DNA of 39,469 nucleotides, taken from positions 1 to 39,469 of the forward strand of contig JAUVKT010000016.1 in NCBI GenBank assembly GCA_030596125.1, read 5' to 3'. Origin of the DNA: Bacteroidales bacterium (GTDB lineage: Bacteria; Bacteroidota; Bacteroidia; Bacteroidales; VadinHA17). The notes below the pieces were generated by a model. It saw only the letters and a program-made list of their open reading frames with translations. It was not told where the DNA came from and made no database searches. The position numbers were made by a program, and so were the translations under genes. Positions 6,529 through 19,710 of this stretch are shown one piece after another; positions within the stretch are counted from its first letter, which is position 1; each line of letters starts with the position of its first letter.

Positions 6529-7542
6529 CTATACTATTTCAACCTCTTTTTTGAGCTCTATACCGAACCTCTGGTTTACTGATTCAATGATCCGTTCAGC
6601 AAGGTTAAGGATTTCAATTCCTGTGGCATTACCGTAATTAACAAGAACAAGTGCCTGTTTGTTATGGACACCTGCATCACCATCCCTGAATCCTTTCCAT
6701 CCGCACTCCTCTATTAGCCAGCCGGCCGGAATTTTTATATGATCCTCGTTGGTTTCATAGTATGGCATTTCCCGGTTTTTATGATGTGTCGACTTAAAGA
6801 GTTGCCTGTTGATAACCGGGTTTTTGAAGAAACTGCCTGCGTTACCTGTAATAGCCGGATCAGGTAATTTTTCTCCCCTTATCTCCATTACAGCTTGCCT
6901 GATGGTGTGGAGGCTCTTTTTACCTATTCTGTTAACCCTCTCTTCGAGGTTCCCATATTGAGTATTGAATTGATCAGGGTTCTTTATTAGATTAAAATAG
7001 ACCTTGCTGATAAAATATTTTCCTTTCAATTCATTTTTAAAAATGCTTTCCCTGTAGCTAAACCTGCAATCATTTGCAGAAAAGAGCTCAGCCTTTCCTG
7101 TGGAGAGCCTGATTGCTCTTACCGCCCGAAGGACATCCTTTATTTCACTTCCATAGGCCCCGATATTCTGAACGGGTGCAGCCCCTACTGTTCCGGGAAT
7201 AGAGGAGAGGTTTTCAACACCTCCCAGGTTAATATTAACGCACCATTCTACGAAACTATCCCAGGTTAGCCCGGCATCAGCGCTAACAACAATATTTCTG
7301 TTCTTCTCTTCAACAATATTGACTGAATTACAGGATGCATTAATAATTACACCATCGTAATCGGAGGTAAAGAGTATATTGCTCCCTGCACCAAGAATGA
7401 AATATTTTAGTCCCGATTTAACTGCTTGCTCTGCCGCAGCGAGTATATCCTCCTCGTTCCCGACAGAGATAAACCTTCTGGCCCTGACGTTAAAACCAAA
7501 GCTGTTGTATTCTTTTAAGGAGTAGTTATCGTAAATTTCCAT
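6529..7542 (-). CDS. murB: UDP-N-acetylmuramate dehydrogenase, type I
   Basis: The 337-residue cytosolic flavoenzyme makes UDP-MurNAc from enolpyruvyl-UDP-GlcNAc with NADPH. The FAD-binding region is visible (GAGSNILFTSDYDG at 51-64; SIPGTVGAAPVQNIGAYG at 114-131). Catalytic residues can be placed by alignment with E. coli: Ser237 in GSFFKNP donates the proton, Arg164 lies in SYRESIF, and the C-terminal Glu333 sits in LKKEVEIV. The SYRESIFK signature and the length put it in type I. It converges on mltG, so two peptidoglycan genes lie tail to tail with only two bases between stops. Confidence 0.96.
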   Translation of the reverse strand: MEIYDNYSLKEYNSFGFNVRARRFISVGNEEDILAAAEQAVKSGLKYFILGAGSNILFTSDYDGVIINASCNSVNIVEEKNRNIVVSADAGLTWDSFVEWCVNINLGGVENLSSIPGTVGAAPVQNIGAYGSEIKDVLRAVRAIRLSTGKAELFSANDCRFSYRESIFKNELKGKYFISKVYFNLIKNPDQFNTQYGNLEERVNRIGKKSLHTIRQAVMEIRGEKLPDPAITGNAGSFFKNPVINRQLFKSTHHKNREMPYYETNEDHIKIPAGWLIEECGWKGFRDGDAGVHNKQALVLVNYGNATGIEILNLAERIIESVNQRFGIELKKEVEIV

Positions 7543-7716
7543 TATTGTGCTTAAAACTTCATTAGTATATTATGTTGAATCACAAACCAATCTCAGGTCA
7601 CTCCTGCAGGGCAGGTTAAGTACCCATTAGTTACTGTAAATTTACTATTATTGATCCGGTTATCTATACAGGCAGAGTTATTTTATTTATGTTATAGACA
7701 ATGGATTGATTTGACC

Positions 7717-7724
7717 TATCTTTG
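7717..7724 (+). promoter_or_regulatory. -7 promoter element almost touching a start codon
   Basis: TATCTTTG fits TAnnTTTG and ends five bases before the ATG at 7730. If it is used, transcription would begin at or near the start codon, giving a leaderless or nearly leaderless mRNA. No matching TTTG is visible 19-21 bases upstream. Confidence 0.4.
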
Positions 7725-7729
7725 CTGAA

Positions 7730-8854
7730 ATGTCGAAAAAGGTTATTATATCGGTGTCAAGTGATATAGTTACTGACCAACGTGTATTAAAAATGGCGGG
7801 GGTCATTAATGAAGCTGATTGTGATGTTATAATCCTGGGCCGGATTCTTCCTGATAGTTTACCGGTTGATGACCTTCCATTCAGGATCAGACGTTTCAGA
7901 ATGATATTTAAAAAGGGTTTTTTATTCTATAAGTGGCTGAATATTCGTATTTTCTTTTACCTGCTTTTCCACAGGGCAGATATCCTGGTTGCCAATGATC
8001 TTGATACTCTTCTGCCTAATTATATTATCTCCAGGTTTAAAAGAGTTGAGTTGATTTTCGACTCGCATGAGTACTTTACAGGTGTCCCGGAACTTGCCGG
8101 CCGCAAATTTGTAAAAGGTGTATGGAAGTATCTTGAGCGAAAAACAGTTCCTGCACTGGATCATGTAATAACAGTAAATGAATCAATCGCTGATCTTTAC
8201 AGGAAAGAATACAACATTGAACCGGTTGTAGTTAGAAATCTGAGCCAGACGCATGTTATCGATCCGGTTAATCGCAACCTGTTCTGTTCTGATAATGAAA
8301 ATCTGTTATTGGTGCATCAGGGTACATGGAATAATGACAGCCGGGGCCTGGATGACCTGCTTGAAGCAGTGCGCATAACCAATGGTGTTCATCTGATGGT
8401 TATCGGGAAAGGTACTTCACTTGATGCTTTAAAAAGTAAAATTAAAGTTGACGGATACTCAGACCGTGTAATATTCTTTCCGCATATGAAGTGGGAAGAG
8501 ATGATGTCATACACTAAAGCAGCTGATATTGGTTTTAGTCTTGAGAAAGGTGACAGTTTAAGTTACAGGTTAAGTTTACCGAATAAAGTATTTGAGTATA
8601 TATCAGCAGGTGTGGCCTTAATAACAAGCGGACAGCCTGAGGTGAAAAAGATACTTGATGAGTTTAATTGTGGAATTTGCGTAGATAGTAATGACCCCGG
8701 ATCAATTTCCAAAGCTCTTGTTCTGTTAAGGGATGACAGGGACCTGCTTTTGCGACTAAAAGAGAACTCAAGGAAGGCAGCGGCCCTGATAAATTGGGAA
8801 AACGAAAAAATAAAAGTCACAAGTATATACAGGAAAGCAGGTTTATATATTTAA
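7730..8854 (+). CDS. Glycosyltransferase, GT4 (Glycos_transf_1) type
   Basis: The 374-residue protein has the two-domain GT-B layout. The N-terminal acceptor domain starts with KKVIISVSSDIVTDQRVLKMA and contains DILVANDLDTLLPNYI (about 83-98) and an FDSHEYF motif. The C-terminal nucleotide-sugar domain has LLVHQGTW (about 197) and the donor-binding stretch LSLPNKVFEYISAGVALITS near 282-301, in which the Glu of FEYI fills the place of the GT4 EX7E motif. It should add a sugar to a surface polysaccharide or lipid carrier in the cytosol; the substrate cannot be read from sequence. A small DUF6132 gene follows nine bases later and is probably co-transcribed. Confidence 0.88.
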   Translation: MSKKVIISVSSDIVTDQRVLKMAGVINEADCDVIILGRILPDSLPVDDLPFRIRRFRMIFKKGFLFYKWLNIRIFFYLLFHRADILVANDLDTLLPNYIISRFKRVELIFDSHEYFTGVPELAGRKFVKGVWKYLERKTVPALDHVITVNESIADLYRKEYNIEPVVVRNLSQTHVIDPVNRNLFCSDNENLLLVHQGTWNNDSRGLDDLLEAVRITNGVHLMVIGKGTSLDALKSKIKVDGYSDRVIFFPHMKWEEMMSYTKAADIGFSLEKGDSLSYRLSLPNKVFEYISAGVALITSGQPEVKKILDEFNCGICVDSNDPGSISKALVLLRDDRDLLLRLKENSRKAAALINWENEKIKVTSIYRKAGLYI

Positions 8855-13278: not shown

Positions 13279-14684
13279 TTAAAACCCTGCTGCCTGTCCG
13301 TCTTTTCTTGATTCAGAAGCTCCATAATAGACTTTATTCTTATTATCCCACATAATCGCCTGGTAGCCACCATAGCCGCCCAGGTTCCATGCAATCTTAT
13401 GACCTTTCATAAGCAGCTTCCGGATATCTTCCCATCTTATGCCTGATTCGAGGTTTACAGTTCCTCCATCTGCCATAATTTCACCGGTTGGTTGAGATGA
13501 TCCAACATGGCGTATTCTTGGAGCGTCACCTGCTTCCTGAAGGTTCATGTCAAAATCAATCAGGTTAATAACGATCTGTGCATGACCCTGTGGTTGCATT
13601 GCACCACCCATAACTCCAAAGCTAATCCAGGGTTTACCATCTTTGGTAATAAATGCAGGTATGATAGTATGAAATGGCCGTTTCCCTGGAGCATATACGT
13701 TAGCATGACCTTCCTGCAATGAGAACAGTTCACCCCTGTCCTGAAGAATAAATCCGAGCCCGGGAGGAGACATACCGGAGCCCATCCCTCTGTAATTGCT
13801 CTGGATTAGTGAAACCATATTGCCATGATTGTCAGCAACAGTCAAATAAATTGTATTTCCGGATTCAATCTGGCCGGGCGGATAACTTCTGGCAGCCCTG
13901 TGAGGGTTTATTAACTTAGCCCTTTTGGCTCCATATTCTTTTGAAATAAGCTGATCAATTGGTATATCCACAAATGACGGATCGGCATAATACTTTGCCC
14001 TGTCTTCGAACGCTAGTTTTTTTGCTTCTACTAAGTAGTGTATATATTCGGCCGATCCGAACCCCATCTCTCTTAGATTGTATTGTTCGAGGATATTCAG
14101 AATCTGAAGCGCGGCAGTCCCCTGCCCGTTAGGTGGTAATTCCCAGACATCATAACCCCTGTAATTGATTTTGATGAGTTCGACCCATTCTGAATGATGT
14201 CTGGCAAGATCTTCATAACTCAGGAATCCTCCCTGCTCTTTAATAAAATCGGATATGGTTTTAGCGATGCTTCCCTTATAGAATTCGTCTCTTCCTCCCA
14301 TTGCAATTTTTTCAAGGGTGTTTGCCAATGCAGGGTTTTTGAAGATTTCACCTTTCCCGGGAGAATGGCCGTCAGGCATATATATGTCAGCTATGTTTGG
14401 AAAACGCCTGAGATAAGCTGTTCCGGTTTTCATATAGTGGGCTATCAATTCTGAAACAGGAAAACCCTCTCTGGCATAGGTGATTGCAGGTTGAAGTACA
14501 ATATCTACAGGAAGTGTCCCGAACATATCATGCATTTCAAACCATCCGTCAACACAACCCGGAACTGAAACGGGCAGGGGACCATAGGCAGGAATTTTTT
14601 CATACCCGTTTTCCTGTCCTGTGACTTCAACATCCAGCCAGGGGATAAAAATAAAAACAGAATAAGGATTTTTAATGTGTTCAT
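13279..14684 (-). pseudogene. Gamma-glutamyltransferase, broken by an internal frame-shifting deletion
   Basis: The open 418 codons from 14535 encode most of a gamma-glutamyltransferase: GTLPVDIVLQPAITYAREGF, the autoprocessing segment SGNTIYLTVADNHGNMVSL (the Thr in NTIY aligns with catalytic Thr391 of E. coli) and GMGSGMSPPG. The frame runs further upstream as YEKIPAYGPLPVSVPGCVDG, a family hallmark, but has no start. A separate frame from the ATG at 14684 encodes a signal peptide (LKILILFLFLSPGW) and the mature N-terminal start SQDRKTGM. Between them roughly 80 residues that the family normally has, including the glutamate-binding Arg region, are missing. The two frames meet at about 14603-14615. 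The gene should not make active enzyme unless the join is an assembly error. Confidence 0.85.
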
Positions 14685-14728
14685 AATATCATGTTGTAAG
14701 AAAAATAAGCATATTCATCCCTGGTTGA

Positions 14729-18389: not shown

Positions 18390-18677
18390 ATGGCTAATAT
18401 ACGAGAGTTGAAAAAAGATATAGATTACCTGGTATATGAGGTGATCTCAGATTGTTTCACTGCTATGTCTGTTCAACCTGAAAACAGATCGAAGAAGTTG
18501 GCAGAAATTGCTGGTGATGCGGTTGTCCTGAGAAACGAACTGTTTTCACGGGCCAGGCAGCCCGGTGGTAAGGATAGTAAAAAGGAGGTTAAAGATCATT
18601 ATAAAAAACTTAGGACAGATCTTATTGAGGGTGTCGATAAATTGTTTGAAAGAATAAGTAAGATTGTTAAGAAATAA
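18390..18677 (+). CDS. Small conserved protein of unknown function
   Basis: The 95-residue protein is predicted to be soluble and mostly helical, with many charged residues (ELKKDIDYLVYEV, DHYKKLRTDLIEGVDKLFERI) and no signal or membrane segment. I do not recognise a domain; it looks like a short protein kept in Bacteroidota genomes, possibly a coiled-coil adaptor. It lies downstream of the aminotransferase, and its last 11 bases overlap the end of the convergent AmrS gene. Confidence 0.7.
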   Translation: MANIRELKKDIDYLVYEVISDCFTAMSVQPENRSKKLAEIAGDAVVLRNELFSRARQPGGKDSKKEVKDHYKKLRTDLIEGVDKLFERISKIVKK

Positions 18678-19689
18678 AGTGTTTGTAAATTTGTGTATTA
18701 CAAGTTTTACAGTAGCCTTCTTCTTTTATATTAACGTGGATCGTATCATAACCATAGCGTGTTGTTACAACTGTTCCGCAACCAGGACATTTGGTGTCTT
18801 TTCCCAGAGTTGAGTTGATATTACCAAGGTAAACATAATCAAGTTTTTCGAGAGCAATTTCAGATAGACTTTCAAGAGTCTCTCCCGGTGTTACCGGTTC
18901 ATTGCTTTTGTACCTCGGGAAATATCTGCTTAGATGAAGCACCGAATCTCTACCGCAATTGTCAGATATCCATTCAATACATTTACTAAAAACACCCTGG
19001 TCGTCATTCAATCCGGGTATTATCAGCATAGTTAACTCTAAATGTTTGCCTGCTTCTGATACGGTCTTAATTGTATTAAGAACCGGTTTAAGTCTTCCTC
19101 CGGTCTGTTCTTTATAAAAACTGTTACTGAATGATTTAATATCGATATTAAAAGCATCCATTACATCCATTACCTCTTCCAGGGCTCCTGGATTAATAAA
19201 CCCGTTAGTGACCATTACATTTTTAAGGTTATTCTCTGCCGACATTGAGGCTATATCAAACATAAATTCATGCCATACTGTGGGTTCGTTGTAGGTAAAA
19301 GCCAGGCCAATATTATTATTTGTTGATAATGCCCTTCTTACTATCAATTCCGGTGAGAGATGCTTTCCTTTGGATACAACATCATATCCGGTTACCTGAG
19401 ATATTTCATGGTTTTGACAGAATTTACAGGAAAGGTTACAACCAAAGGATCCGACAGAAACTATTTCTGATCCCGGATAAAAATGGTAAAGAGGTTTTTT
19501 TTCAATAGGGTCAGATCCCAGCGATGATACAACACCATATACATCAGACATCAGTTTTCCATTGATGTTAGTTCGCACACCACATAAACCTCTGTTCCCC
19601 TTTTTGATAAAACAATCATGAGGACATAATCGGCAAGCTACCGCTGAATTCTCTTTTTTTATGTAATGCCTTGCTTCCAGAGTTTCAAT
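18667..19689 (-). CDS. amrS: AmmeMemoRadiSam-system radical SAM enzyme (AmrS), non-ATG start
   Basis: The radical SAM cluster motif CNLSCKFC is intact and is followed by family segments FTYNEPTVWHEFM, MLIIPGLND and LHLSRYFPRYK. A C-terminal zinc-ribbon-like CPGCG plus CKTC pair is also present. An ORF beginning at the GTG at 19578 gives 303 residues but cuts off a conserved N-terminal cysteine region. The same frame continues upstream, encoding CRLCPHDC and GLCGVR, the family's usual CxLCPHxC block, and is open to a TAA at 19693-19695. In this stretch there is no ATG, GTG or TTG; the possible starts are ATT at 19689 (340 residues) or CTG at 19680. I chose ATT because IETLEARHY aligns with a typical N-terminus. 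The reaction of the family is not settled. No AmrA or Memo partner is nearby. Confidence 0.85.
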   Translation of the reverse strand: METLEARHYIKKENSAVACRLCPHDCFIKKGNRGLCGVRTNINGKLMSDVYGVVSSLGSDPIEKKPLYHFYPGSEIVSVGSFGCNLSCKFCQNHEISQVTGYDVVSKGKHLSPELIVRRALSTNNNIGLAFTYNEPTVWHEFMFDIASMSAENNLKNVMVTNGFINPGALEEVMDVMDAFNIDIKSFSNSFYKEQTGGRLKPVLNTIKTVSEAGKHLELTMLIIPGLNDDQGVFSKCIEWISDNCGRDSVLHLSRYFPRYKSNEPVTPGETLESLSEIALEKLDYVYLGNINSTLGKDTKCPGCGTVVTTRYGYDTIHVNIKEEGYCKTCNTQIYKHFIS

Positions 19690-19710
19690 ATTTTAGTATT
19701 TATTAATAGT

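Follow-up and report, generated by a model that had tools for sequence, protein, structure and literature searches.

A radical SAM gene of the AmrS family without ATG, GTG, or TTG ahead of its conserved cysteine block: a possible CTG start in a draft Bacteroidales genome

When analyzing the window, a stretch of 39,469 nucleotides that makes up contig C101 of a draft genome (2.70 Mb, 165 contigs, 96% complete), we noticed a gene for an AmrS-type radical SAM protein with no ATG, GTG, or TTG between the stop codon upstream and the conserved N-terminus. The frame runs from stop to stop on the minus strand (19692..18667) over 341 codons, and its earliest ATG, GTG, or TTG is the GTG at 19578. The 38 codons 5' of this GTG hold the CRLCPHDC...GLCGVR block and encode seven residues that are invariant across 48 aligned sequences, which shows that the pattern is no artifact of gene prediction. 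In frame there are ATT 19689, CTG 19680, ATA 19662, and AAT 19692. The frame, its TAA, and the positions of ATT and CTG are as the initial annotation had described them, and its view that the gene must either use a rare start codon or have lost its start is borne out. Judging from sequence comparison, the gene may well be an intact stand-alone AmrS paralog in which an ancestral ATG has become CTG, with initiation at CTG 19680 and perhaps some at ATT 19689; we favor this reading tentatively. The features are listed in Table 1.

Table 1. Features of the AmrS gene and its 5' region (positions in the window)
Feature	Coordinates	Strand	Basis
AmrS-type radical SAM protein, proposed coding sequence from CTG	18667..19680	-	337 aa + stop; TIGR04337, AlphaFold2 model
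CTG, favored start codon	19678..19680	-	-15 spacing as ortholog ATG; context 7.4 bits
ATT, alternative start, three codons upstream of CTG	19687..19689	-	context 7.5 bits
GTG, first in-frame canonical codon, judged not to be a start	19576..19578	-	context -6.2 bits; predicted hairpins; would drop seven invariant residues
CRLCPHDC...GLC conserved block, upstream of GTG	19580..19635	-	invariant residues in 48 sequences
TAA closing the AmrS frame upstream	19693..19695	-	sequence
A/T-rich stretch around ATT and CTG, predicted to be unstructured	19661..19710	-	predicted MFE 0 kcal/mol; A-rich

The assignment to AmrS, made in the initial annotation, was confirmed by a whole-length match to TIGR04337 (321.8 bits against a cut-off of 220, E = 4.4e-96), and the alignment begins at residue 7 of the ATT-started protein. 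The window protein shares with this family the CxLCPHxC...GxCxVR block, the CxxxCxxC radical SAM motif, and C-terminal CxxC pairs. Its gene differs from those of the family in having no ATG, GTG, or TTG ahead of the N-terminal block and in not adjoining Memo/AMMECR1, which sit beside a second AmrS copy. Numbered from CTG 19680, residues C16, L18, C19, P20, C23, G31, and C33 are invariant in 48 sequences, which bears out the claim that the cysteine block is part of the protein; the radical SAM cysteines C81, C85, and C88 are equally invariant. GTG 19578 corresponds to residue 35 in this numbering. All seven invariant N-terminal residues precede it, and because the block lies upstream, a product started at GTG would lose all four N-terminal cysteines. 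An AlphaFold2 model, built on aligned sequences, has a mean pLDDT of 96 and is ordered from residue 1, with values of 96 to 97 in the first four ten-residue blocks. A structure search with the model returned the fold of pyruvate formate-lyase activating enzyme (3cb8, 3c8f, and 8fo0), the nearest solved fold with a TM score of about 0.8 on the target. These enzymes are shorter and 16 to 18% identical to the window protein, and the sequence match begins only past its N-terminal cysteine block.

Start positions in the orthologs point to CTG 19680. An ATG or GTG start was found in 48 of 48 orthologs, 13 to 20 codons before the first cysteine (13 to 16 codons in 43 of them and 17 to 20 in 5). Start codons vary in the family, with GTG in L035 and L187. 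Where an ortholog had two possible starts, the one near -15 was chosen; loci L032, L184, and L186, in which the start-reading motif was unmatched, were excluded from the count. Maximum-likelihood phylogeny places the window protein with L004, L005, and L006 (support 91/92), and all three begin with an ATG at -15 that aligns without gaps to CTG 19680. ATG at -15 is also seen in L008, L011, L012, L013, and L020, and LEARHYIKK, read from the CTG in the window, aligns ungapped with MEARFYQKK of L008 and L011. CTG 19680 itself stands at -15 and ATT 19689 at -18. The window gene thus has a near-cognate codon in a normal context at the homologous start position, and, given the ATG of the sister clade and the ungapped alignment, a one-base change from ATG to CTG can account for it. 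The initial annotation had suggested looking for an ATG at 19689 or 19680 in orthologs, and the ATG of the nearest clade matches the latter; orthologs that lack the cysteine block and start at the GTG position were not found among the 48, all of which carry the block behind a canonical start. The same 48 of 48 show that a non-AUG codon is not conserved across these related species. At about 54%, the identity to the closest relative is low, so the ancestral start codon had to be deduced from other genera. The window genome is the sole representative of its genus in the comparison set, and no sequence from the same species was found (a GTDB contig scan peaked at about 50% identity, and megablast against phage records was empty).

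We scored the candidate codons with a context model made from 252 unambiguous ATG starts in 1.25 Mb of the same genome, window included. True starts in this genome are A-rich at -10 to -13, are followed by A-rich codons, and have no Shine-Dalgarno signal. Their median score is 5.0 bits, against -4.4 bits for internal codons. ATT 19689 lies at the 78th percentile of true starts and CTG 19680, with A at -11 to -13, at the 77th, a context reached by 0.1% of internal codons, while GTG 19578 lies at the 0.8th percentile. Predicted folding energy is 0 kcal/mol around ATT and CTG and -6.4 kcal/mol, with hairpins, around GTG. Context and folding support initiation near ATT and CTG, and context does not distinguish the two. 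Further upstream, nothing closer to a promoter was seen than a loose match to TTG...TAATGTTG from 19767. A shorter enzyme from GTG 19578, which the initial annotation had offered as the result of a mutated ATG, is very improbable: this is the first standard start codon in frame and the expected choice of a gene caller, but it combines the worst context among the candidates and predicted hairpins with the loss of four invariant cysteines, and no ortholog that was read uses it. Gene callers would pick it nonetheless and cut the invariant cysteine block from AmrS; the annotated start should be CTG 19680. We also considered TTG 19688, which overlaps ATT in the +1 frame. Its context is good, at 7.1 bits, and the MKLW that opens its reading, MKLWKQGIT*, resembles the N-termini of some relatives, such as MKLWEKHND in L180. 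The stop after nine codons and the absence of a slippery sequence before it ruled out a start at this TTG with a -1 shift into the AmrS frame, to which we give practically no credence, and frame 0 fits the family already from EARHY onward.

The initial annotation had placed ATT first, with infC as its model. In E. coli, infC and pcnB have AUU starts, and translation of the window gene from ATT 19689 would similarly give three extra N-terminal residues (M-E-T-L-E-A-R...). Its context equals that of CTG, and L016 and L018 have extended N-termini (METFTEASWYEKKENS and MEPLFEATYYEKK) that resemble the ATT reading, IETLEARHYIKKENS. However, these two loci lie outside the sister clade and have their ATG at -19, not at -18. 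The sister clade begins at -15, and -18 was the sole start in none of the 48 orthologs read. ATN starts are probably used in this lineage, as infC in the family seems to begin at ATA. We located infC in L079 from base 1396 (contig C31 of the genome, about 7342-7950) and examined the relatives L199 to L216. No ATG, GTG, or TTG precedes the conserved N-terminus of infC, and a conserved ATA (ACC ATA GCA GGA...) is found there, which from these alignments is most likely the start in the window genome and in nearly all relatives whose start region was read. The ATA stands mostly behind a purine-rich Shine-Dalgarno-like sequence, otherwise unusual in the lineage, and ATT 19689 lacks such a sequence. 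As the orthologs put the ancestral ATG at CTG 19680, we regard the ATT reading as unlikely.

The initial annotation was too narrow in describing ATT starts as known chiefly from infC. In Staphylococcus aureus, infC begins at AUA, and AUU or AUA starts have been shown for cvfC1 (AUU) and for ccpN and citZ (AUA), with AUU giving about 10% and AUA up to 30% of AUG expression (PMC13009471). The window gene resembles these natural non-AUG genes (infC, pcnB, ccpN, citZ, and cvfC1) in that a conserved N-terminus stands behind near-cognate codons only and reduced expression is expected. It differs from them in that its codon is probably CUG, is seen in one species only, and has no Shine-Dalgarno sequence, and nothing points to a regulatory role that is conserved.

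We next to this considered an assembly or sequencing error that hides a true ATG (or GTG or TTG) at 19680 or 19689. One wrong assembly base would yield an identical picture, and in a draft genome of 165 contigs one substitution would be enough. In about 46% of the genome, we ran a start-context screen over 724 genes to pick out those whose best canonical start scores poorly while a near-cognate codon further upstream has a good context. This screen was used in place of a coding-potential scan for missing starts, which was insensitive and left AmrS outside its top 45. Four of the 724 genes matched: AmrS, a ggt-like gene in the window, an SIS-domain gene (L102), and a gene for an FAD protein (L104). 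Start-less genes are few, and broken frames, in the SIS and ggt-like genes, explain two of the four, which leaves assembly error as a candidate explanation for the other two. The remainder of the 1-kb AmrS gene is nevertheless free of error signs, and assembled contigs seldom contain substitution errors. The FAD gene is start-less as well, and there a single substitution at the homologous position cannot restore ATG. We consider an error somewhat unlikely.

The possibility that the gene recently lost its ATG and is an early pseudogene is tied to its genomic setting. Its neighbors in the window are an apparent aminotransferase gene, a gene for a 95-aa protein, and a DoxX-like gene, and neither Memo nor AMMECR1 is among them, which weakens the case for a shared pathway but not that for membership in the sequence family. 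A complete AmmeMemoRadiSam locus is present on contig C102 (L094, 900-6031), with a Memo-AMMECR1 fusion, a large membrane protein, and the second AmrS, which carries an N-terminal extension. The two AmrS paralogs are 40% identical. Loss of the start might be tolerated owing to this second copy, and the broken ggt-like gene lies 4 to 5 kb away. Against decay, the 341 codons hold no other lesion, and the radical SAM and accessory cysteines and the other invariant residues of the family are all intact. Both paralogs are kept in relatives, which means that the two copies are not obviously redundant. We consider decay of the gene doubtful.

Under the favored reading, the ancestral ATG would have turned into CTG through one substitution at 19680 (A to C, coding strand). 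The A-rich, unstructured leader, normal for the lineage, would recruit the ribosome, and fMet-tRNA would initiate at CTG 19680 and perhaps partly at ATT 19689. Expression would be expected below the AUG level because the initiation machinery disfavors triplets other than AUG, GUG, and UUG. We found no literature record of a natural CTG start in this lineage and no measurement of CUG starts in Bacteroidota. The case is of an ordinary kind: a non-canonical start in one species, or an error, in a known gene family. If the CTG is used, it would be an example of natural CUG initiation in bacteria that make hardly any use of Shine-Dalgarno pairing; to our knowledge, little is known about non-AUG initiation in this group. 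If the codon is a base-call error, missing starts could serve as a quality check for draft genomes. It is also conceivable, though quite improbable, that the lineage is more tolerant of odd starts in general (CUG or AUU in AmrS, AUC or AUU in the FAD gene, and AUA in infC), through relaxed start-codon discrimination, with expression of such genes that tracks the level of IF3.

Several other start regions of the genome deserve description. The ggt-like gene (window 13282-14688, minus strand) encodes a gamma-glutamyltranspeptidase-like protein whose N-terminal part is gone, and a signal-peptide-like reading (MNTLKILILFLFLSPGWMLKS) lies in a different frame at the start of the gene, a pattern that points to a frameshifting deletion or to faulty assembly. 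The FAD-dependent oxidoreductase gene (L104, 18121-19428, contig C15) has no canonical start before its GGGPAG motif; its orthologs L217 and L218 have an ATG four codons ahead of a conserved Asp. In the SIS-domain gene (L102, 1780-2832, contig C13), an ATG lies one base out of frame (ATG AAA GAT TAA), which reflects an indel unless the gene uses a non-canonical start, and only distant orthologs were found, too far to date the frame break. Finally, prfB, encoding RF2 (L150, 5964-7001, contig C63), is split over two frames at AGGAGGTATCTTTGAC, in keeping with the programmed +1 frameshifting for which this gene is known.
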